A stretch of DNA of 64,000 bases. Origin: Astropecten irregularis. Taxonomy: Eukaryota > Echinodermata > Asteroidea > Paxillosida > Astropectinidae. Every line of letters starts with the position of its first letter. Within the stretch, counting starts at the first letter, position 1. The notes under the pieces were generated by a model. It saw only the letters and a program-made list of their open reading frames with translations, had not been told where the DNA came from and ran no database searches. The stretch covers positions 7,626,001-7,690,000 of the forward strand of contig OZ020259.1 in NCBI GenBank assembly GCA_963971285.1, in the 5' to 3' direction. The position numbers and the translations under genes are program-made. This document shows positions 1 through 63,574 of the stretch, one piece after another.

Positions 1-890
1 CAATGGCCAGGGGCACAGAGGCAATGACTGGGGGCACATAGGCAATGACCAGGGACGCTGAGGCAATGACCTGGGGCGCTGAAGCAATGACCTGGGGCAC
101 CAGAGCAATGACCAGGGGCACAGAGGCAATGTCCAGGGACACCGGGGCAATGACCAGGGGCGCTGAGGCAATGACCGGGGCACCGGAGCAATGACCAGTG
201 GCGCTGAGGCAATGACCGGGGACGCTGAGGCAATGGCCAGGGGCACAGAGGCAATGACTGGGGGCACATAGGCAATGACCGGGGACGCTGAGGCAATGAC
301 CTGGGGCGCTGAAGCAATGACCTGGGGCACCAGAGCAATGACCAGGGGCACTGAGGCAATGACCGGGGGCACCTAGGCAATGAACTGGGCACTGAAGCAA
401 TGTTTATGAGCACCGAGGCAATGGTCAGGGACACCATGGCAATGTTCGGGGACACAGAGGCAATGTCCAAGGGCACTGGGGCAATAACGTGGGGCACCGA
501 GGCAATGACTGGGACACAGAGGCAATGACAAGGGGCACAGAGGCAATGACCAGGGGAACCGGGACAATGATGTGGGGCTAAGAGGCAATGACGAGGGCCA
601 CACTGACAATGACAAGGGGCGCAGAGGCAATGACCGGGGGAACCCAGGCAATGACTGGGGCTAAGAGGCAATGACCAGGGGCAGAGAGGCAATGACCAGG
701 GGCATCGGGGCAATGACCAGGGGCACCGAGGCAATGACCAGGGGCAGAGAGGCAATGACCAGGGGCAGAGAGGCAATGACCAGGGGCATTGGGGCAATGA
801 CCGAGGGCACTGAAGCAATTACCAGGTCACTGAGACAATGACCAGGGGCACCAAGACAACCAGGCATACTGAAGCATCATACCTTAATGA
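1..890. repeat. 21-bp minisatellite with a higher-order repeat
   Basis: About 42 tandem units of roughly 21 bp follow the pattern gaggcaatgaccaggggcac. The sequence from 1 to about 120 recurs almost unchanged from 231, so eleven units form a 230-bp higher-order repeat. The array lies inside the minus-strand CULT gene, beyond its fourth exon, and is therefore intronic. Because the unit is a multiple of three, it gives long Pro/Leu/Ser-rich minus-strand frames; these are artefacts of the repeat. Confidence 0.93.
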
Positions 891-948: not shown

Positions 949-3900
949 CAGCCAAGGTGGACCTTGCAGTGAGGACATGATACTATTCTCCACAGATAAG
1001 CAGGGAACCAGGTATGCTCAGCAAATGCCTAACAAAAAAAGGTTTGACAAAACTACAGAGTCAACATTTTCACCAGGTCTATGGATCTAAATGTATGTAT
1101 ATACAATATGCTGAAAATCATCTCTGTAATCCCATGTACATGCCATATGCTGAAAATATAGGTTGTAGTTTTTCATTGAAACTGAAGCTCTGCTTTCTTT
1201 TTCAAACCAGAGAATCTCCTTCTGAATCACAGCAAAAAGCATCTATTTTGAAACCTGTCATTTTACAATGGATTCACGAAATAGAACCGGAACCCAAGCA
1301 TGGGCCTCCATTTCGTAAACCCACCACTATATGTATTTATATTGAAATCCAGAAAAGACAAGAAAACGTAGACATGGAAGGTTTGGACTGAGCCGGAAGT
1401 TGGACCTCAAACCTCTAGATGAGGGTAATCAGTGCTCTACCATCTGAGTTTTCCAGGCATACAGCTTTTTTCCAAACGGTTCAACCTTGGCTGTGTCTCC
1501 GGCTCCGGCTTTGGCTCAACATCCAACATTCATTTTAAAGTCAAATTAAAACACACATTAAAATAGAGGCTTTTGGCACAGCTTTGAGGAAGATGTACTT
1601 ATAGTGAATGTTCAACTGAGTTTCAACTTCATTGAAAACAAAGAACAATTGACCGGAGTGAGTTTCAAAACCAACGACCCCTGGAACAGCCAAAGTACAT
1701 GTATAGCGGTATGTGTGTGGTTTCATGGACTCTGACAAAATAAAAAATGATTGACTAGGGACACAACCAACATATGACTGGATAGCTCAGTCGGTAAGGC
1801 ACTGGTACGGTATTACATGGTGTCGTTGGTTTGAATCTCACTTCAGTCATGTTTTTCTTTGTTAAATTTTCAAGGAATTAAAATCAAACCAGTCAGCTTC
1901 CAAAAAATACCCTTTCAAACATGTACTTTCAACATGTACATTGCGAACAAGACACCTGTACTAGAACCTTTGATTAAAGTTTGAAAAAAGACTGTGAACT
2001 GTCAACTGCATTAAATGTCAACTGCATAAAGTTGTTGTCCATGATTTGCAGTCTAACTCATAATTTCCCATCACACTTAATGCACATTCTATGAAAGTTA
2101 ACTTGGCATCAAACAGTCACGAGCAATAGTGGTAATATGGATGGCAACAAGAGAGTGATATTTCTTGCCATAGGAATGGGGTTTTATATGGTGAACCAGA
2201 GCCAAGGAGTGATTGGGATGGGAAACATAGTTGACATGTACCTGCTCTCCTTTCTTCACACCAGCATGACTTGCAGTAATCAGTTCAAACATCCGTCCTG
2301 TATGTGAACAACATAAAAATACCAAAACTAAAATCAAGAAAAAATAACTGAGGTTACCAACCAGGTGAAAACCAAAATGAAAAGGGTACAGAAGTACATA
2401 TCTTGAAAAAGACAAAGGAAACCCTTGTTCAAACCACAAAGCTAGGGCTTGATGATGCGGGTATTCCTATTAAAACTCACACCATATGTCCTTCTCAATG
2501 TCCTGTAAATTACCGGTAACATGGTTGTATTTCCCTGTTCAAAGAAACAGATTGATTTCATTCTCATTTGACAAGCAGAGAATCAAGCACCATCAAGTAA
2601 GGAAAGGGGTAGTGAATAGTGCCAGTATCAATGTAACCGGGACACCAACACAAATCCTGCCCCAGCTTGGTGGAATGATCCAGCCAAGAGAAAGCAGCCA
2701 CGCCACATACTTGCCTTGTGGGTTCTTGAAGAGTTGAATCAAAACATCCTCCATCCCTAAAATGGTGTCGTTCCTCTGGCCGAGTGACAGGATGCTTGTC
2801 TGCCTGATGAGATCAGTTGCCTTAGCAACCTCATGACCACACTGCCGACACAGCAGGAAAGCTACAACATTAATTGACAAAAAAAGAGAATTGTAATCAC
2901 AGTCTTTAAGAACATACTGAACCTGTCTGTTTAACATACAGCAAAATAAAAATGACACATTGCAAAGAAATAGCAGTACATAGTAAAGTGTATGCATTGT
3001 TAGTTTGTAATTTTGTTTTTCATTTTTAATACATGATTAAGATTTAAACGGACTCCCCCCCCCGAAAATCAGAGTGCTACAAGTAGAAGGCTAGTCAAAC
3101 TGTTGTAGTACTTTTGTTTAGTACTGAGGGTAATGGTTTAGTATACATGTACATGTACATGTAGCACCCCGTAATAATATGAAGAGATTTCATTTCCACT
3201 CAACAGATTTAAATTAAAAACAACTGACAACTTTCCAAACCCTCACTCTTATTACGAAACAAACTGTTTAAGTGAGTTTGGTACCAATTAGGCCTAAGTG
3301 TAATTCACGGGAAAAATTCCATGACGGCCATTACTTGTGTTGTGCACAAACCCTCATTGGACCAACAGAGGGCATTATTTTAAAAAATGGTTGCCACCAG
3401 ATTTGAAGTGCTAAGTTAAAAAAAGAAGCCTTTTGGCCTCTGAGAAAGATCCTGCTAGGTTCGAAACGCAGGCATTTGATATTACATTTGATATTACATT
3501 TCAGGTCATTTTGGCTGATGAGCAGTTTGCAGCAGTTTAATTAATGTATACAAATTAGTGTCAAACTCACTTTATATGCCACCCCAGCCCGAAGCTGAGA
3601 TTGAAGCTATTTATTCTTGTATATCTACTATAGTCTTACCGGCATTTACAATGGATAAGGAAGGGCCTAACCCTTTTTCTGTAAAATCTAGGCCAAATAG
3701 TCGTCAGTGACGCAGTGGAATTCTTTCCTCAAACATACTCGATACTAGTAGTAGACTAGTAGGCCCCTACTACAACTAGTACTAAGAACTTCACTTCTTT
3801 TTACAGTTTTACTAGCGGACTAGACCCAGTAACTGGGGCGCTAAACCCTTGTTTTTAATGTTGGGGTTAACGGTCAGTTGGACGACCGACCCTCAACCTC

Positions 3901-4905
3901 TCAGCGACCCAGTTACTGGGTTTGTTGCAACAAATTTGACAAAACTATATCATCCAGCTCCAGCTAGAAGTTTAGAAAGTTCTTTAGAAAAATGCAGCAT
4001 GCAATGCAGTACAGGAACCGGTGCCTATATACCATAGAATCAAATATTTAACTCTGGGTGCATTCGTTTAGCTAACACGGGTCAACCCTGGGAATGGTCG
4101 TGCTATATATACTGTACAAAACAACCGAGAGAGTGGGCACGAGGTTGACTGGTGTCGACCTGTGTTAGCTAAACGAATGCACCCAAAATGTCCGGTCGGT
4201 GCCCCAAAACCCACAGTTTGACTGGAAACACTAGCGTAAATGAACGTGAACGGACATGAACACTGACTGGCAACATGTTTTTACTTTTTAGCCTCGCCGT
4301 CCACTTAAATGATCATTTTTGAATCTTAAAATTAAATGAAACCCAAGTTGTTTTTCGTCTCAAATCTAATAAATAACAACAACTAAAACCAATTTGATAC
4401 ACTGGAAATAACCTTCTCAACCTAACCACGAATATCGCTTAATGCAACAACGGATTTGTAAAACCGTCAACGAAACTGGGATTCCTAGTTTACTCGCACC
4501 GGATTTGTAAATCCGACGATTCCAAGATTTGTTACAACTCAACAGTACAGGTCTACGACTAGTACAATCACCCTCACTAACTAGTATACTACTAGGCTAC
4601 TACTACTAGAACTTTTGTAGTAGTGCCGGTGCAGTGAACAATGTTTGTAAAATAACACAGTAACAACTAACACAGTCAGTAAATGTTGGACTTTGAATTG
4701 AGTTGGCCGTAAAACTAAAGGGGTCAATTAACTAGATCTACTACTGACCTTCCCATTCGTCATTGTCTGAGTCACATGCAGATGTACTACTAGCCACGGT
4801 CAGTATGGTAACCAGTGTAGCAATGTAGATGATTAAACAAGATATGCAACTATCACTTCCGCGGTGAATTGTATTCCACGTAACACAGCGCCAGGGCGCC
4901 GCCAT
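949..4905 (-). CDS. CULT-domain (cereblon-fold) secreted or membrane-anchored protein, four exons, 3' end off the window
   Basis: I assembled four exons by hand: 4905-4749, 2861-2715, 2297-2242 and 1028-949. The intron phases are 1, 1, 0 and all agree. Exon 1 opens with ATG in a good context (aacATGG) and encodes 52 residues with a hydrophobic stretch at about 20-40, read as a signal peptide or anchor. Exons 2-4 encode a CULT domain: a CRQC motif, then EHTWFPAYLW, then CPHC and HLGW. The spacing Trp-x5-Trp-x13-Trp and the two CxxC zinc pairs match the tri-tryptophan cage and zinc site of cereblon. There is no Lon-like N-terminal domain, so this fits the stand-alone secreted CULT class rather than cereblon itself. 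The last codon seen (TG/...) is split by a GTAAGC donor, so the end of the protein lies left of position 1. Intron 2 has a GC donor. The cage would be expected to bind a small ligand of the uridine or imide type; the natural ligand is unknown. Confidence 0.85.
1141..1640. mobile_element. Diverged fragments of the GGCCCTTTTCC MITE family
   Basis: The stretch 1148-1290 matches the interior of the better-preserved element at 23284-23526. Shared pieces include the gctgaaaat start, the actgaagct block and the final ggattcacgaaat. Inverted pieces of the same family (ttccaaac, ctccggctccgg, aatagaggcttttgg) follow at 1470-1580. The copy is rearranged and no clean ends are visible. Confidence 0.5.
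1392..1459 (-). repeat. tRNA-like (SINE head) sequence, minus strand
   Basis: Read on the minus strand it has a D-arm/A-box (actcagatggtagagc) and a B-box-like GGTTTGAGGTCC. It is degenerate and no full cloverleaf can be drawn, so it is called a SINE head and not a tRNA gene. It lies inside an intron of the CULT gene. Confidence 0.45.
1646..1849. repeat. Inverted pair of tRNA-derived SINE pieces
   Basis: At 1776-1849 on the plus strand there is a tRNA-like sequence. Its acceptor arms GACTGGA and TTCAGTC pair over seven positions, and it has a D-arm (gctcagtcggtaaggc) and a B-box (GGTTTGAATC). Its anticodon loop is far too long for a functional tRNA. A second copy of the T-arm lies inverted at about 1646-1693. 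The same family occurs at 63501-63574. Confidence 0.55.
3430..3475. repeat. Dispersed repeat with gcaggatctttctc motif
   Basis: The segment ctctgagaaagatcctgctag is the reverse complement of motifs found again at about 39580-39612 and 55510-55540, where a gcaggat...ttctccaaggct core is shared. It behaves as a dispersed noncoding repeat; its type is unknown. Confidence 0.4.
4056..4184. mobile_element. MITE with GGGTGCATTCGTTTAGCT inverted ends (copy 1)
   Basis: The 129-bp element starts GGGTGCATTCGTTTAGCTAA and ends in the reverse complement of the same sequence. Related copies are at 6010-6100 and 38591-38718. No ORF is present. It sits in intron 1 of the CULT gene. Confidence 0.85.
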
Positions 4906-6009: not shown

Positions 6010-6100
6010 GGTGCATTCGTTTAGCTAACATTGGTTAGTCCTTACTGGGAATGACCGTGTTTAACTGGTGTCGACCCGGGGGAGCAAAACGAATGCACCC
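6010..6100. mobile_element. MITE with GGTGCATTCGTTTAGCT inverted ends (copy 2)
   Basis: This is a shorter 91-bp relative of the element at 4056-4184. It keeps the left end and the right end (cgaatgcaccc) but lacks about 35 bp of the interior. Confidence 0.8.
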
Positions 6101-7244
6101 AAAATAAGTTATAAGCCTGTTGCAACGAATCTACGAATTCGCCGAAAATACAATTTATCATAAACGCCCTCTATCATTCGATTCCTATTTTCGGTACCGA
6201 ATTTTAGGTCACTAAAACCACAAGTATAACCGACGTCTTAGAGAGCCGAATACAAATATAACAAAGATAATGGTTTCCACCTTTTGTAGACTTTGGGTCA
6301 CTTCATCTTTTCAGTGGATTTCTTGGAACTTCTTGCATCGTTTCGCATTATTTTCTTGACCTTCAATTACTTTTAGCAACAGACCTGAATGTTTTCCCAG
6401 ATAACCACGTGACCAGGTAGCCCAGTTTACAGTTATAACACTGACACATGCATGAGTAAATAAATTGCACACTAAATGACAGGAGACACGTCACTAACTA
6501 TTGATAAGTTCCACACAGCCAAGATAACGAGACTGTAATAATACATTTGCAGAATCGCAAAACGCTGCCACTATTCACTACACAACAAGAAATACCCCTC
6601 GCTCTGTACCAGTCAGTTGTCATAGTTGATGTTAGTCTTGTTCAAGACGGTATTACGTAGTTGTACCTGGCCAACAGATCGCACGTACGTGTACGTGTCA
6701 ACACAACAAACGACCCGAAATAACGTCTACGCCACACACACAAGCCTGTAATACCGTCTTGTCCATTTACTCCAAACTGCCCGGAAAATACCGGGCAATA
6801 ACCCCCCGCGAAGTCGGCGCATCATGACGTAGCCTTATTTGCATTAATATATTCTGAAAATTTGCATGGGGATGAAGTCTAGTACCGCAACGACATCGCA
6901 AGCATTACATGCAGTACGCATACACACATGTAGGCCATATACTTTACAGTACTTGTAAATTACATGTGCTGTACATGAATTTGGAGGCCTTGGATTTTGC
7001 AACACAAAAGTTGGGATTCGAGAGCTTTCGAGAACAACAAGGCTCTTTATAGACAACTTGGGAATGGAATAAATTTACTAACCGTGCCCCTCGAAATCAT
7101 TCCGTGTCTTTATGGAGCCCGGGAACAGACTCCATGGTATCATAATTCAGTGAAATTATTTCATTCATCCCTTCATTTATTTATTTTGGCAACATACAAA
7201 GTACTGTACACATGAAATACACAATAAATAACGAATAACAATTA

Positions 7245-8634: not shown

Positions 8635-9369
8635 ATGATCGATGTGAAATTCCTAATAAGTTTCACCTCAGCTGTGAGCTTGTTTCTGGCAGGGATCAGC
8701 CCAACTGCAATTGGTGTGAAGACTCGATGGACCCAGTGGGGTAACTCTCTTTACAAGATGCAACCTTGTGGTACAGACAAACTAACGTACGCCGATGCCG
8801 TTGAGTGTTGTAAGAAACACTGTGCATACCTGGCCGTGCCTTCTTCTCAATCAGAGAACGATTTCATGTTTGCGTTGCAACACGCATCAAATCCAGGCAA
8901 TGGTGTGTGGATCGGCTGCACTGGGGATGGAAACGGAGTGTGGAGTTGCATCGAAGGAGAAGACCGAGTCGATACCCAGTATAGAAACTGGTCACCGTCG
9001 ACTGATTGGTCATCGGGAATGTGTGCAGTCATTGCCGGAGAAGGCTCTGCAGATGAAAATGGACAATGGAACATAAAAGGTGCCGTTGAATTGAAGTACT
9101 ACATGTGCGAGAAGATAGTTTCCCGCCCTGACGTATGCGCCGGAGCTGCAGCCGATCAGCAGTGCCTATCTGCCAAGCTCATCGAAGCACTGGAATCCGA
9201 GCATCTCTCCAAAGTGGCGATGCAGGGACAGTCCGTGTACGGCATCACTCAAGATTCACAAGCTCAGAATGGAGACTACGAAATATCTGTCAAATCTACT
9301 GACGTCAGAGAGGGTGGAATGAAGGTTGTGTCCCATGATATCACCGTTGATTTCTGCTCTGGCAACTAG
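8635..9369 (+). CDS. Secreted C-type lectin-domain protein with C-terminal extension (244 aa), intact
   Basis: The single-exon ORF begins at ATG 8635. Residues 1-27 are a signal peptide. Residues about 33-159 form a C-type lectin-like domain: ECCKKHCAYLAVPSS with an EN.F motif near 74-77, VWIGC at 91-95, VWSC at 102-105, YRNW at 116-119 and a final YYMCE at 155-159. The usual EPN/QPD sugar-specificity motif is replaced by SPSTD, and the WND calcium site reads WNI. Canonical calcium-dependent sugar binding is therefore doubtful. A cysteine-containing tail (Cys 168, 177 and 241) extends about 85 residues beyond the domain, unlike the other lectins here. It is the most divergent lectin of the window, but its downstream flank matches theirs. 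The probable role is extracellular recognition. Confidence 0.88.
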   Translation: MIDVKFLISFTSAVSLFLAGISPTAIGVKTRWTQWGNSLYKMQPCGTDKLTYADAVECCKKHCAYLAVPSSQSENDFMFALQHASNPGNGVWIGCTGDGNGVWSCIEGEDRVDTQYRNWSPSTDWSSGMCAVIAGEGSADENGQWNIKGAVELKYYMCEKIVSRPDVCAGAAADQQCLSAKLIEALESEHLSKVAMQGQSVYGITQDSQAQNGDYEISVKSTDVREGGMKVVSHDITVDFCSGN

Positions 9370-18767: not shown

Positions 18768-18877
18768 ATAACAACAGGCATATAGATCGTTTCATTTTTG
18801 AATTGAATGTCAATTTAAACAGAACTATAGTTGTTGAATTTCTTTGGTAAGAGTGACGAGCGAGTTTGCCTTTAGTC

Positions 18878-19371
18878 ATGTTTTCTGCAGTTTTTATCGC
18901 ATATGCTGCTTTATCCACTTGCTCTGTCACTCAAGTTTCGGCGAAGTGTAGGAGTCTGCTCCGTGGTCCATCCTGCCCTCCGGAGTGGATTCACTGGGGA
19001 ACGTCTTGTTATATGCTCACTCAGTCCCAGTTTACCTGGTGGAGTTCTAGAGCCGAGTGCGCCAAGTTGGGTGGCATTCTGGCCGTGCCAAGCTCCCTGG
19101 AAGAGAATGGTTTCATTGTAGACAGTGTAATTCCGGACGGAGAGAGAAAGTTTGGATCGACTGCAACGATCAAGTGACAGAGGGAACCTGGGTGTGCGAG
19201 GAGGAAGGAGTGGAGATAAGCTACAAGAATTGGGCAGATAGGCAGCCTGATGACTACAATGGAGAAGATTGTGGTTTCATTTACCCTGATAGTAAGTGGG
19301 GTGACAGAAATTGCGATGAGTCCTATCGTGCAGTGTGCAAGGCGCGTACTTACTCACACCGAGACCTATAA
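18878..19371 (+). pseudogene. C-type lectin with one frameshift
   Basis: The true start by comparison with the intact paralogue is ATG 18878 (MFSAVFIAYAALSTCS, a signal peptide), not the upstream TTG. The domain begins CPPEWIHWGTSCYMLT and continues through ILAVPSSLEEN. Near 19140-19152 two extra bases relative to the copy at 46441 shift the frame. The other frame then gives WIDCNDQVTEGTWVCEE, NWADRQPDDYN and RAVCKARTYSH to the stop at 19371. Apart from that indel all conserved cysteines and a QPD motif remain. It is therefore either a young pseudogene or a sequencing error in a functional gene. Confidence 0.85.
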
Positions 19372-25530: not shown

Positions 25531-26545
25531 ATGTATATATATATAAAGGTTTAATAAAACACTGCTCATTGCAGCCTGCCGGCTGAATTTCAAGACAGTT
25601 TACAATAAAAATACAAACAGGGAGACACAGAATTGAAATATGTAGTAAACAGTATAAAATACAATAAAACACCAAAACACAAAATTTCAGCTGAACTTAA
25701 AGGAGTAAAAATAGATATTGCACAACAAACAACACTTTTTTAAAATATACATTGAGTTGAGTTATGAGGCAATTAGATTGTGCTTAGAGCCTCATTAACA
25801 GGTCTTTTTAAGTATGGAACTGGGATGTTTTTTAAAAGATTGGTTTTACATGTCACTTCATGACGAATTCTTTTTGACTTGAGATTCATAGAATGTGTGC
25901 TTTTTGATTGGTCAAACAATTGGTTAAATTTATTTGAATTGTATGAATGCAAAGCAAATTTGGTGCAAAGCTTGGCTATTCTACTAGATAAAGGTTCCAG
26001 ACCCAGTGTGGATATTGCATAATCATAATTATAATACTTTTGACCTAAAATGATACGAGATATTCTTTTTTGAATGTTTCCTATTTGATCAGAAAGAGTG
26101 CAGGAAATACCGGAATGCCATAATGGTGTTCCATATTCCACAAGGGGTCGGAATATACTGCAACAAGTTCATTATTAGTAAGACATGTATTCTTTAATTT
26201 CCTCCACATGAAGAGTTTCTTAGATACTTTTTTGACTATGTTAGCAATATGCATGTCCCATTTCAAATTCTGCTGGAAAATAACGCCTAATAATTAAGCA
26301 CTCTGAACCTGTTGAAGTTGAACATCCAAAATAGAAACCTGAACAACCGGGGGGTTCCTTTCTGCCTGAATAGATTTGCATAACTTGGCATTTTGACGGG
26401 TTCAAAGACAGTTTGTTATTTACAGCCCAATCACACAAATTGTCTAAGTCGTTCTGGACCTTACTAGCAGCATTGATGTTTCTATTTTCACTAAGTGTAA
26501 TATCATCAACATATTTCCAGCATTTGCTATGAACAGGATATATGC
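25531..26545 (-). mobile_element. Degenerate LINE (reverse transcriptase C-terminal part), minus strand
   Basis: The minus strand encodes KYVDDITLSE, a reverse transcriptase YxDD catalytic box. It is followed by LDNLCDWAVNNKLSLNPSKC and, after frameshifts, by MEYGTPLWHSGI...IQKRISRIILG, the usual thumb/C-terminal region of CR1/Jockey/L2-like LINEs. The element is 5'-truncated and broken by frameshifts near 26270 and 26140. It is absent from the second duplicated unit, which gives an empty site. Confidence 0.82.
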
Positions 26546-28245
26546 ATTCTTGCTGAATGGCAAAGATTCTAACTCCTCGGTGAAGCCCTGGTAATACATA
26601 CATTCGAAGTGTATAGCTATAAGACACATTTTTTTCAAATAGATATATCAAAGATAAGAATGAAATGTGAAGTATTTTGTAAAATTTGACGATTAACGAA
26701 TTCAAAAAGTTAAGATAACTCGTAATTTTGCGATACTATGCTAAAAACCCCCTTGTTTTTTTGTTGTTTATTTTCTTTATTACAATTCATATGATATAGT
26801 AGGTATTTTTTCCCCACACAGTTTAAGCTTAATACACTGGTTAAAACCTGCGTGTGATGGGACGTGATGGTAATGACAGATTGGGCTTTACGCTCCTGCA
26901 TTTACGTTTTCATTTTTACAATTCTCCATTTTCACCGTCTTTGCCTTTTTCACCACGTTTTTATTATATGGAACACGTTAAAATAAGTTGAGCTTGACCT
27001 CCATGCATTATTTTACTTCTCGTGTAGGTATGTTATAACGTATGAAGATGACAAATATGTGACTCTCTAACTAAACTAAAGGACTATCAAACTCGATTCC
27101 AGTTTACAGACTCGATTCCCGTTTACTTTAAAATGTTCAATTTCAGCTCATTTCGTTGATTTCACGTTTCGGTGTATCCACAATTAAACCAAATAAAGAT
27201 TGAGCCAGGAACATGGACAAGATGAAGGATGGTGAACTTTTCAATGATACAGGTAATTTCTGACATTTATTTTAACGAGAAAACGTTGATGTTGTTTTGT
27301 TTATGGAAAACTTCATTTGAAGGAAGCTTGGAGCAAAATAATGAATAACTATTTACTGCCAATGAACATTTATTACCATACAATGTGGCAAAACAAGGAA
27401 AAATATAAGACTGAATATTACCCAGTCTGCTGATGAAATACTGATCTTATCACAATAATACGCTTAACTGGTTATATCTGTGTGCATGGAAAGACAATAA
27501 ATTGCACCAAAGACGACGCCACTGCTGAAGGTCAATCAATAAAACGTGCAAACCTGAAGATCACAATCCCCCTTCGTGGCTTCTCGCTTAAGGTCGATAA
27601 GACCCATGACATTGAGAAGAGCAATTAACGTAAATATTTAATTCCATGCACGAGCCAACAGATAAGCCAATGGAATATCAATAGGAGATGGTACAGACAC
27701 GAACAAAAATGTAAATGTCAAGCCTTTGAAACAACACATACATCGGGATCCATTGGGTAAAGATGAAAACACTGCACTTGTAACGTAGCCTGGTAAGTAG
27801 TGCTACCTGCAAAAGATCTTGTACCCACTATGCCTGTGTGTGATTGGAACGACCAGGGGTCCCCATACCCGATGAAGCCCTGGTAATAAATCATGTATAA
27901 TTATACCATGCTTGTCTATCTACAATGATAAACTAAAACATATATTAACGCAATATGAAACCTAGAGTGACATGTTTCAATTTGACAACTGTATTCTTGA
28001 TGAATGGTAACGATTCTAACTCATCGGTGAAGCCCTGGTAATACATACATTCGAAGTTTATAGCTATAAGAAAAATGTTCTCAAATACATTTATCAAAGA
28101 TAAGAATTAAATGTGAAGTATTTTGTAAAATTTAACGATTAACGAATTCACAAAATTAAGATGAATAAATTTGCGGTACTATGCTAAAAACCCTCCTGTA
28201 TTTTAGTCCGCATAGTTGCGGAAAAGCTATACTGTTTGTTAAGAT

Positions 28246-29731: not shown

Positions 29732-31742
29732 TAATCTCTATAACTTTCTTATCCCTCAATCCGACACTGATGAACTTCTGGCCATCAATTGCTTTCATAA
29801 ACACAGTGACCCGCTCAGTGACGGTGCCATTATTGTCGGAGGTGATTTTAATTGTACCTTTAATCCTGAGTCAGATCGTCTCGGTATGCCGACTGAGCAT
29901 CGCCCCAAAATGTCTGTGGCTCTCAAAGAGTCCTTTAGCAAACTCTCTTTGTACGATGTCAGGCGCAGACAGAACCCCAACAAACAAAATTACACCTGGT
30001 ACAGAGCTAATCCCCCCCAGTCAGTACGGCATTTCAAAGGCCAGACTGGACCGCTTTTATGCTCACTCTGCTCTTTTGTCGTCCGTCTCTTTGTGCAAAA
30101 TCCTTCCCTGTTCCTTATTAGACCACTCAGCCGTGATGCTTTCCATTCAACTCCCTTCTACTGACTCGAGACGAAGTGCCTACTGGCACTTAAACAAATC
30201 TCTTTTAGATGATCAGGCCTACAGGGATTTCATCAAAGACCTTTGGACGAGCTGGAGGGATAAACAGAACGAATTCCCTGATATTTGTGCGTGGTGGGAT
30301 TTCGGAAAGATACAAATAAAAACCCTCTCTATTTACGGGTCTAAAATGGCTAAGGAGAAACGCAATGTCCTCCTTAGAATAAATCAGACCATCGAAGATC
30401 TTCTGTCTGCGCCGGACTTCAATGACAATACTAAACGTTCTATTAAAGAACAAAATAAAAAAAAATACAAAAAAAAACAAGAACTTAACAAAATTCTTAA
30501 TAGTGAAGTCTCTCCTCTGGTAATCTTATAGACGATGCCGCTCAAATAAAAAAACACGTCCGTGATTTTTATCAAAACTTATACAGTCGTACTCAACCTG
30601 ACGAGGAACTTGATATTGCGGTCAAGCAACTTGGTAGAAATAAAACCCCTGGTTTAGATGGCCTCACTTCTGAATTTTTTCATTCTTTCTGGTCCCTGCT
30701 CAAGGATGATTTTTCTCTCCTTTCTTTCCTTTGCTTGCAGCTCTGAGACTCTTCCAATATCTCTTCCTAAAAAAGGGCGACCTTTCTGACTAGCTTATTG
30801 GCGTCCTGTCTCCCTCCTAAACACCGATTATAAAATTGTTGCCAAGTTGCTTGCAAATCGTTTGAAACAGTCTATTGAGAATGTTGTCCACGCAAAGATG
30901 CAAAGTTCCTTTCGGCTGAAAGGAACGATTCGTGACAACCTTTGCCTCATAAGAGACAGTATCAATTATTGTAACTTTAATAATCATCCTTTGGCCGTGA
31001 TCAACTTGGACCAGAAGAAAGCATTCGACAACGTTGACCACGGCTATCTACTTAATACTTTGAGAGCCATGGGTTTTGGTGATGCTTTCATCTCTTACGT
31101 CCAACTTCTGTATAATGGTACTGAGAGTCTGGAGAAGGTGTGCGGCTCCCTGACAGCTCCTCTCACCTTTGACAAGGGCATCCGTCAAGGATGTCCGCTC
31201 TCGGGCATACTCTACTCTATATCCATCGACCGTTTTCTGCACAAACTCCGCCAAAATCTCAGCCACCATAGCTTTCTCCTTTTCCACTCTCACTCTCGGC
31301 ATACGCTGACGACATCTCAATCTTTATCACCTCCGACACTGGTTTTAAAATAGTTGATCACACGTACGCTATTTTCAGTAAAGCCTCTGCTGCAAGTTTG
31401 AATACCCCAAAATCCCAAGGGCTATGGGTCGGGCCTTGGGCCGGACGGGACGACCAGCTTCTAAATTTCAAGTGGAATAATGAGGGTCTTAACTTAGTTC
31501 GCTTGGGAAACACTCATAACTTCCTTAAACAAAACTGGACCGTCTGTAAAGAAAACCTTAACTAATTTTATATCAAAAATCCGACAAGGGCGGTCTTGAT
31601 CTTGTCTGCCTCCAAGCACGCACGCTCGCCTTCAGAATGTCTACTATTCAACGTCTTTTCGGTTTTTGCTCCCATCCAGCCTACGCTATGCTAAATCATT
31701 TTCTGCGACGATACAAAAAACTCAGCCCTCAACCCTTCTTCA

Positions 31743-39904: not shown

Positions 39905-41790
39905 TGGATTATCCTGGGAGATTTCATCCATACTTTCTCCCTGCAGAGCCTGACCAAGTCACTGTCGTAGCCGAGTGGTGTAAAGGAACAGTACATGATT
40001 GGATTTCATCCATACTTTCTCCCTGCAGAGCCTGACCAAGTCACTGCCATGGCCGAGTGATGTAAAGATACAGTACAGGATTGGATTTCATCCATACTTT
40101 CTCCCTGCAGAACCTGACCAAGTCACTGCCGTAGCCGAATGGTGTAAAGGAACAGTACATGATTGGATTTCATCCATACTTTCTCCCTGCAGAACCTGAC
40201 CAAGTCACTGCCGTAGCCGAGTGATTTAAAGGTACAGTACCGGATTGGATTTCATCCATACTTTCTCCCTGCAGAGCCTGACCAAGTCACTGCCGTGGCC
40301 GAGTGATGTAAAGGTACAGTACAGGATTGGATTTCATCCATACTTTCTCCCTGCAGAGCCTGACCAAGTCACTGCCGTAGCCGAGTGATGTAAAGGTACA
40401 GTACAGGATTGGATTTCATCCATACTTTCTCCCTGCAGAACCTGACCAAGTCACTGCCGTAGCCGAGTGATGTAAAGGTACAGTACAGGATTGGATTTCA
40501 TCCATACTTTCTCCATGCAGAGCCTGACCAAGTCACTGTCGTAGCCGAGTGATGTAAAGGAACAGTACATGATTGGATTTCATCCATACTTTCTCCATGC
40601 AGAGCCTGACCAAGTCACTGCCGTAGCCGAGTGATGTAAAGGTACAGTACATGATTGGATTTCATCCATACTTTCTCCCTGCAGAACCTGACCAAGTCAC
40701 TGCCGTAGCCGAGTGATGTAAAGGTACAGTACAGGATTGGATTTCATCCATACTTTCTCCATGCAGAGCCTGACCAAGTCACTGTCGTAGCCGAGTGATG
40801 TAAAGGAACAGTACATGATTGGGTTTCATCCATACTTTCTCCATGCAGAGCCTGACCAAGTCACTGCCGTAGCCGAGTGATGTAAAGGTACAGTACATGA
40901 TTGGATTTCATCCATACTTTCTCCCTGCAGAGGCTGACCAAGTCACTGCCGTGGCCGAGTGATGTAAAGGTACAGTACCGGATTGGATTTCATCCATACT
41001 TTCTCCCTGCAGAGCCTGACCAAGTCACTGCCGTAGCCGAGTGATGTAAAGGTACAGTACAGGATTGGATTCCATCCATACTTTCTCCCTGCAGAGCCTG
41101 ACCAAGTCACTGCCGTGGCCGAGTGATGTAAAGGTACAGTACAGGATTGGATTTCATCCATACTTTCTCCATGCAGAGCCTGACCAAGTCACTGCCGTAG
41201 CCGAGTGATGTAAAGGTACAGTACAGGATTGGATTTCATCCATACTTTCTCCCTGCAGAGGCTGACCAAGTCACTGCCGTGGCCGAGTGATGTAAAGGTA
41301 CAGTACAGGATTGGATTTCATCCATACTTTCTCCCTGCAGAGCCTGACCAAGTCACTGCCGTGGCCGAGTGATATAAAGGTACAGTACAGGATTGGATTT
41401 CATCCATACTTTCTCCCTGCAGAGGCTGACCAAGTCACTGCCATGGCCGAGTGATGTAAAGGTACAGTACAGGATTGGATTCCATCCATACTTTCTCCCT
41501 GCAGAGCCTGACCAAGTCACTGCCGTGGCCGAGTGATTTAAGGTACAGTACATGATTGGATTTCATCCATACTTTCTCCCTGCAGAGCCTGACCAAGTCA
41601 CTGCCGTGGCCGAGTGATATAAAGGTACAGTACAGGATTGGATTTCATCCATACTTTCTCCCTGCAGAGCCTGACCAAGTCACTGCCGTGGCCGAGTGAT
41701 GTAAAGGTACAGTACTGGATTGGATTTCATCCATACTTTCTCCCTGCAGAGCCTGACCAAGTCACTGCCGTAGCCGAGTGACGTAAAGGA
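39905..41790. repeat. 82-bp satellite array, about 23 copies
   Basis: Each unit contains ggatttcatccatactttct, ccctgcagagcctgaccaag and tcactgccgtagccgagtga followed by gtaaaggtacagtacag. Units differ by only a few bases, so the array is young or homogenised. Its length is not a multiple of three and the frames it creates are not genes. Confidence 0.97.
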
Positions 41791-43978: not shown

Positions 43979-44290
43979 AGGGCAAGCCTAATTTGCATAT
44001 TATCTATTTCCGGAAATAAAACATATAATATTCATGATTTACTGCGGTACCCGCCGCGATATTGGATTCGATTCACCCTGCAGACCCCAGCTAGCACGGT
44101 GGCCAAGCACGTATGGCATCTGCATTAGTAATCAAGAGGTCGTGGGTTCGAATCCAATCTGAGCCAGCGTGTGATTTGTTCACGTGCTCTCACAAGCACT
44201 GAGTATACAGTGATCATCCACGTTGGTGAAGGCAAGCTAAATTTGCATATTATCTATTTCCCGACCGAAATCATACAATATTCCTGATAT
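43979..44290. repeat. 60-bp direct repeats flanking a tRNA-derived SINE
   Basis: The sequence gcaagc.taatttgcatatta continuing tctatttcc occurs at 43981-44038 and again at 44231-44290. Between them at 44089-44167 is a tRNA-like head with B-box GGGTTCGAATCC and anticodon-like region cattagtaatcaagaggtcg. The repeats are too long for a normal target duplication; tandem duplication is more likely. Confidence 0.65.
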
Positions 44291-59996: not shown

Positions 59997-60494
59997 CTAA
60001 TAGTCTCCTTGAGAATAAATAGGCTGTTTGCACACTGCGCCATAGGTACTCAGGCAATCGTAATCATGCCACTTCCCACGAGTCCCCCATGATCCAGAAA
60101 TAAAGCCACAATCTGGTCCGCTGTTGTTGTTTGGTTGATTACCATCCCAATTTCTGAAGCTGACCTCCATTCCTCCTTCCTCGCACACCCAGATTCCATC
60201 GGTCGCCAGATCGTTGCAGTCGATCCATGCATCCACCCCGTCAGGAATCATGTTATCTACGATGAAATCATTCTCTTCTAGGGAGCTTGGCACGGCCAGA
60301 ATGCCACCGAACTTGGCGCACTCTGATCTAGCATTATTCCAGGTAACTCTGGATTGAGTGAGCAAATAACAAAAGGTTCCCCAGTGATGCCACTCCGGAG
60401 GGCAGCGTGGCCCACAAAGCAGACTTCTATACGTACCAGAAACTAGAGGAGCATTTGATACAACAGCAAATACGACAACAATCGCAGCAAACAT
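59997..60494 (-). CDS. Secreted C-type lectin (165 aa), intact
   Basis: Single-exon gene from ATG 60494 to the stop at 59997-59999. Residues 1-20 are a signal peptide (MFAAIVVVFAVVSNAPLVSG). The C-type lectin domain fills the rest: CPPEWHHWGTFCYLLT (31-46), the WNNARSECAKFGGILAVPSS stretch from 52, EENDFI (73-78), AWIDCND (89-95), WVCEE (102-106), FRNW (113-116), QPN at 120-122, WHD at 142-144 and GAVCKQP (152-158). Nine cysteines are present, enough for the long-form disulfides. QPN with WHD is a mixed version of the usual QPD/EPN and WND sugar-binding motifs, so specificity cannot be predicted. It is the only uninterrupted member of this subfamily in the window and lies in the opposite orientation to the others. 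Likely an extracellular carbohydrate-recognition or defence protein. Confidence 0.93.
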   Translation of the reverse strand: MFAAIVVVFAVVSNAPLVSGTYRSLLCGPRCPPEWHHWGTFCYLLTQSRVTWNNARSECAKFGGILAVPSSLEENDFIVDNMIPDGVDAWIDCNDLATDGIWVCEEGGMEVSFRNWDGNQPNNNSGPDCGFISGSWGTRGKWHDYDCLSTYGAVCKQPIYSQGDY

Positions 60495-63200: not shown

Positions 63201-63500
63201 AAGATTCTTCAGGGTTACCACCACCAACAAAATGGCCCTTTTCAGGACCACCAAATCATCCCAAAAGAGATTTATATTCAAGTCTGTTGATTACTGCCAA
63301 AAGATGAAATCCATTTTCTTTTTTTCAATTTCATTTTTTCGCACTCTCCTTCAAGAATACATGCAGGTCCAGATTTCAGGAATGGCGACTTGACTCAAGA
63401 TTCATGATGCAAGATGTCACTCAGATGCAAGATTTAAAGAAATAACTATTAGATTTTACAAAAAAATGTATTGTCATTGAAAAGTGAACAAAGAAAAATT

Positions 63501-63574
63501 GACTGGAGTGGGATTCAAACCGGTGACCTCCTGAATACCATATACAGGCGCTCTACCAACTGAGCCTTCCAGCC
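63501..63574 (-). repeat. tRNA-derived SINE head, minus strand
   Basis: On the minus strand GGCTGGA and TCCAGTC form a seven-pair acceptor stem. The D-arm gctcagttggtagagc and B-box GGTTTGAATCC are intact. The T-stem hardly pairs and the anticodon stem has a mismatch, so it is a SINE head or tRNA pseudogene. It is closely related to 1776-1849. Confidence 0.6.

Follow-up and report, generated by a model that had tools for sequence, protein, structure and literature searches.

The CULT domain of cereblon (CRBN) is the thalidomide-binding domain of that protein and a major drug target. Inside a tri-tryptophan pocket, backbone contacts from His378 and Trp380 hold the glutarimide (PMC8900816), and cereblon's natural degron is reported to be a C-terminal cyclic imide (PMC11974815). 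On its own, the human domain has a dissociation constant of 253 nM for a thalidomide probe and is termed the minimal motif for binding cyclic-imide degrons (PMC11974815), so a stand-alone CULT domain is enough for binding. A bacterial CULT protein binds uracil and uridine, and a widespread ligand, extracellular as well, has been argued for (PMC4287342); the same work describes secreted animal proteins with a single CULT domain as group II (Lupas et al. 2015). In titles and abstract starts of the open-access literature we found no further paper on this group; nor did that literature, as searched, yield an assigned function for the secreted animal form or a paper on the fish gene name si:ch211-51h9.7. 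Here we describe a gene for such a protein in the sea star Astropecten irregularis, located at one end of a 64-kb stretch of contig OZ020259.1 (C23:7626001-7690000, hereafter the window), part of a 475.7-Mb genome. Since the class was described in 2015, as a preliminary description of this DNA had stated, the gene is a further member; what it adds is the complete gene, its copies, an intron with a GC donor and a widely shared N-glycosylation sequon. We predict a secreted, N-glycosylated CULT protein that would act as an extracellular reader of cyclic imides, and give this chain as a whole a probability of about 0.38.

A complete gene for a single-domain CULT protein

Four exons on the minus strand of the window (157, 147, 56 and 80 nucleotides, with entry phases 0, 1, 1 and 0; Table 1) join into a single CULT-domain reading frame without stops, as the preliminary description had proposed. 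AG acceptors precede exons 2–4, and the donors of exons 1–4 are GT, GC, GT and GT; exons 2 and 3 can be joined only through the GC donor of intron 2 (CACAAG/gcaagt), absent from the earlier account. We discarded a candidate exon located between them (2534-2483), because its junction with exon 3 creates a stop and it would add an insert that the relatives lack; likewise, use of a GT donor four bases past the GC site makes the following exon run into a stop. Over the part encoded in the window, the protein is 66% identical to a relative from Patiria and 62% identical to those from Acanthaster and Asterias (P0001-P0003), the closest named relatives of the gene (E value 3.8e-55 for Patiria). The alignment to these independently predicted asteroid proteins is unbroken across the three junctions, and chance is therefore excluded.

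The end of the gene does lie to the left of the window, as had been expected, in two further exons rather than one last exon. The complete gene has six coding exons, encodes 191 amino acids and contains a stop, its C-terminus being YADSLLMMPKVYGR; genomic DNA beyond the window supplies G as the third base of codon 147, confirming the tryptophan. To call the gene invisible to single-frame scanning for open reading frames (ORFs), as had been done, was too strong: exon 2 lies entirely inside ORF 2593-2997 and exon 3 inside ORF 2098-2439. Both are unremarkable in the list of ORFs of at least 100 amino acids, and the asteroid proteins, used as tblastn queries, recover the exons.

The joined protein starts with MAAPW and continues with a hydrophobic stretch at about residues 20–38, an acidic linker, the first CxxC pair, the motif QRNDT, NPQG, the aromatic cage and the second CxxC pair. 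Both CxxC pairs (C57-C60 and C138-C141) had been recognised at the outset; their four cysteines are invariant in 64 relatives that we chose from 120 listed (set A3). The spacing W127-x5-W133-x13-W147, which had also been compared with that of human cereblon, is indeed that of the cereblon cage, the NPxG hairpin tip is N99-P-Q-G102, and H125 and W127 take the positions of His378 and Trp380. F149, encoded by exon 5, sits at the cage base, where bacterial MsCI4 (Magnetospirillum, PDB 4V2Y) has Tyr101 (PMC8900816). The closest matches by sequence are cereblon and bacterial CULT chains, and the same chains are the best fold matches of a model of the Patiria relative, through which a beta-tent fold like that of cereblon was matched.

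Shared with cereblon are thus the domain itself, the tryptophan spacing, the zinc CxxC pairs and E-H-x-W before the cage. Unlike cereblon, the protein has a leader and lacks the Lon-like domain and the DDB1-binding region: no Lon-like domain is present in the complete 191-residue ORF, in agreement with the first account, and the first CxxC is reached after only 56 residues. The leader also sets it apart from the bacterial stand-alone proteins, which consist of the CULT domain alone (PMC4287342). With the secreted animal group (PMC4287342), whose named members are fish si:ch211-51h9.7 and asteroid 'protein cereblon-like' (three asteroid members being 62–66% identical), it has in common the leader, single CULT domain, two CxxC pairs, three cage tryptophans and NPxG; Astropecten adds a species, two intact copies and the GC-donor intron, while the sequon is a family trait and no difference. 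We are nearly certain that the gene encodes a single-domain CULT protein of this known secreted animal group.

A lengthened loop carries a sequon in the relatives examined

We noticed that the loop linking the first CxxC to the NPxG tip is about 14 residues longer than that of human cereblon. The second cysteine of the first CxxC and the asparagine of NPxG lie 39 residues apart in the Astropecten protein and in 184 of 192 relatives, against 25 in the human cereblon chain (u119807, residues 14 to 39). These 192 were picked by the first CxxC and the asparagine of NPxG, and are the 204 listed less 11 outside 130–260 amino acids and P0079, in which the first cysteine is missing. In the Patiria model, the loop forms a strand (77–83) that runs on into the hairpin strands (86–95 and 101–107).

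An N-x-S/T sequon is present on the loop in 64/64 relatives of set A3 and in 192/192 of the wider set, counts that come from related rather than independent sequences and from searches starting from shared words. Within A3, the loop holds 68 sites in 1680 residues (0.0405), compared with 18 in the 7082 residues of the rest of the domain (0.0025). The claim held when distant members (query A4, two of whose ten members have QRNDT) served for a third protein search, a control for search bias. A cruder pattern count found the sequon in 113 of 114 relatives, with the segment not located in six more, and the one miss, P0055, was due to a pattern that ended too early, since the protein shows NDT in the alignment; P0079, outside the set of 192, reads RNET at this stretch. 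The sequon stands at the N83 column in 155 of the 192 and eight columns further on in the other 37, of which 35 carry a species name and two are unnamed; judging by those names, we take all 35 to be moths or butterflies.

Because the sequon shifts without being lost, the glycan, and hence a lumenal position, would be what selection keeps. As far as sequence can tell, the conserved sequon speaks for a topology in which the domain is lumenal and the protein secreted, with a glycan close to the ligand groove, and together with the complete echinoderm gene it points to expression in the secretory pathway rather than in a bacterial cytosol. On the shared extra loop, it offers a concrete handle on the family's role. 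No glycosylated CULT form is named in titles and abstract starts of the open-access literature, and the string 'glycosyl' occurs 0 times in the main text of Lupas et al. (PMC4287342), the alignment figure lying outside this check.

Candidate ligands of the aromatic cage

The three cage tryptophans are found in 190, 190 and 189 of the 192 relatives and are invariant in set A3, and the position of F402 is Phe or Tyr in 186 of 192. In the mechanism that we propose, the leader would route the protein into the secretory pathway, where the sequon on the extended loop would be glycosylated, and the cage would bind a ring with an imide or uracil-like edge. The likeliest ligand would be a C-terminal cyclic imide on aged or broken proteins. 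Because the Lon-like part is absent, no feeding of a ubiquitin ligase would be expected, and the protein would read, carry or cap its ligand outside the cell rather than act as a degrader. We put forward cyclic-imide reading as the function only tentatively; if true, a protein-damage signal read inside cells would also be read outside them.

The NPxG hairpin is reported to belong to one of the three parts of the bacterial protein that lose their fold in a ligand-free crystal (PMC4449219); with its greater length and predicted glycan, the hairpin may be more ordered here. A bolder extension, which we regard as unlikely, would be an animal-wide family of secreted CULT glycoproteins in which a glycan on the extra hairpin strand, kept by selection close to the ligand groove, orders the NPxG hairpin. 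The protein would then be closed at all times and read cyclic-imide protein damage outside the cell, as a lumenal or extracellular counterpart of the intracellular cereblon degron pathway.

Several points weigh against the secreted cyclic-imide reader. Binding of uracil and uridine by bacterial CULT favours a small molecule at least equally, no effector or receptor was found, and the fold model was built for the Patiria relative rather than for the window protein. The leader is hydrophobic (best 13-residue Kyte-Doolittle mean of at least 1.8) in 85 of 103 testable relatives, which counts in its favour, but 18 miss this mark, and cleavage was judged from hydropathy and charged interruptions. 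Finally, the His378 position varies among 193 relatives (Phe in 75, Asp in 74, His in 23); this does not settle the matter, because it is the backbone of this residue that makes the known contact, and Phe occupies the position in the bacterial protein (PMC8900816).

The main rival to cyclic imides is a uracil-like small molecule: secreted CULT proteins might scavenge or carry free small rings, whether of the uracil or uridine type, lactams, or dietary or microbial cyclic imides. The window protein has the same cage as the bacterial CULT domain, whose binding of both compounds and argued extracellular ligand (PMC4287342) speak for such a role, whereas the cereblon domain is documented to bind cyclic-imide ends of proteins (PMC11974815), and such ends should arise extracellularly as well. 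On balance, we judge a small-ring carrier somewhat unlikely.

Leader, topology and family assignment

The hydropathy of the leader peaks at a Kyte-Doolittle mean of 2.46 (19 residues from residue 20), which bears out the hydrophobic N-terminus first noted and then described as a signal or anchor peptide. An uncleaved type II membrane anchor, displaying the CULT domain at the cell surface or in the lumen of the endoplasmic reticulum, would fit a hydrophobic stretch of about 18–19 residues that has some 18 residues before it and the first CxxC some 19 residues after it. However, the stretch is broken by Arg in Patiria and Asp in Asterias, leaving a shorter, signal-peptide-like core; these charged interruptions favour a cleaved signal, and a sand-fly member was identified as a salivary protein, as cited by Lupas et al. 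(PMC4287342). We therefore consider the anchor distinctly unlikely. With either kind of leader, the sequon argues for the lumenal side, and secretion with a glycan is, on present sequence evidence, highly probable.

A further possibility is that the cage survives as a structural relic, the main work being done by protein contacts through the glycosylated hairpin and the C-terminal tail (YADSLxxxPKxY). Among the aligned relatives, this tail and the lengthened loop are both conserved, but the cage tryptophans are among the most conserved residues of all, whereas a relic should drift, making this very improbable.

The preliminary description had also looked to the Pfam Yippee/CULT families for confirmation. 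That profile comparison, made with the four-exon protein, returned three weak matches, so a check by Pfam only would miss the CULT gene. Membership of the Yippee or Mis18 family, to which Pfam assigns some relatives and which gives the best of the weak matches (Yippee-Mis18, PF03226), is a negligible prospect, as 15.4 bits fall below the cut-off of 26.6, cereblon and bacterial CULT match best by sequence and fold, and the protein has both the cage and the NPxG tip.

Copies of the gene

A second copy (B) lies inverted on the same contig at C23:7034560-7042081 (+), about 0.59 Mb away, and is intact. It differs from the window gene (copy A) by three non-synonymous and four synonymous changes, with three residues different (pN 0.0067, pS 0.0318, the respective proportions); these are consistent with constraint, but few. 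The window gene itself is intact and not a pseudogene. A third copy (C), on contig C112 (22470 bases; L007, L008, L020), has lost the exon-5 donor and, with pN 0.032 and pS 0.051 over exons 1–4, looks decayed. The GC donor of intron 2 is retained in all three gene copies found.

Among the matches listed, the surroundings of copies A and B correspond in inverted orientation in many pieces, at up to 99.3% identity and from about window position -4883 to 61227; only pieces of at least 300 bases and at least 85% identity were counted, and repeats add matches. The inverted counterpart of window 1-61227 is at C23:6960001-7044641, with the inner end, again among the matches listed, near C23:7621117 / 7044641. 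This arrangement reflects either a recent inverted duplication or the placement of two haplotypes on the same scaffold.

A weak match at C21:17081904 (E value 0.94) was taken as chance, no CULT exon being recognisable in the 10 kb inspected. The canonical cereblon of the Astropecten genome was not located by the CULT query, and a search of a collection of genome contigs for bacterial CULT sequences gave 32 pattern matches, 0 of them confirmed.

Features of the locus and the rest of the window

Table 1 Coordinates of the CULT gene and associated features (window positions unless prefixed C23)
Feature	Position	Strand	Basis or remark
Coding exon 1: ATG, hydrophobic leader, acidic linker	4749..4905	-	MAAP start common to Patiria P0001
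Residues 1-43, leader, probable signal peptide	4777..4905	-	Hydropathy; end at residue 43 is a guess
Coding exon 2: first CxxC, QRNDT loop, strand toward NPxG tip	2715..2861	-	Splice joining, alignment of relatives, tblastn
First CxxC codons (C57-C60), zinc ligands by homology	2839..2850	-	Invariant in 16/16 aligned and 64/64
Codons N83-D84-T85, N-glycosylation sequon on family-specific loop	2764..2772	-	Sequence, alignments
Non-canonical GC donor gcaagtatgt, intron 2	2705..2714	-	Acceptor AG adjoins 2297; GC in copies A, B and C
Coding exon 3: end of NPQG (residues 99-102) and second hairpin strand	2242..2297	-	Splice joining, alignment
Coding exon 4: W127, W133, second CxxC, first two bases of W147 codon	949..1028	-	
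Second CxxC codons (C138-C141)	966..977	-	Sequence
W127-to-W133 codons of aromatic cage	990..1010	-	Sequence
21-bp minisatellite, 40.8 copies in window	1..851	.	Much of exon 4-exon 5 intron
Coding exon 5	C23:7624770-7624679	-	Left of window; first base completes third cage tryptophan codon
Coding exon 6 with stop	C23:7623750-7623707	-	Left of window

Short inverted-repeat elements with ends like TGGGTGCATTCGTTTAGC occur at 4055-4185, in intron 1, and at 6010-6112, upstream of the gene. Elsewhere in the window, ORFs at 8635-9369 (+) and 59997-60494 (-) encode C-type lectins (Lectin_C, 55.8 and 61.8 bits; cut-off 22.6), and similar-looking ORFs lie at 18866-19371, the first of them without a Pfam match. 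Reverse-transcriptase fragments are found at 30847-31353 (+; RVT_1, 60.5 bits) and 26241-26705 (-; 24.5 bits, below the cut-off of 29.6). A repeat array at about 39920-41789 shows matches offset in 82-base steps, with related arrays, among the matches listed, near C23:6985500-6988000 and 7074060-7080000. A tRNA-Thr(agt) call at 44092-44168 (+) and a weak Rfam tRNA match at 63500-63574 (-; 30.3 bits, gathering threshold 29) are possibly tRNA-derived repeats.
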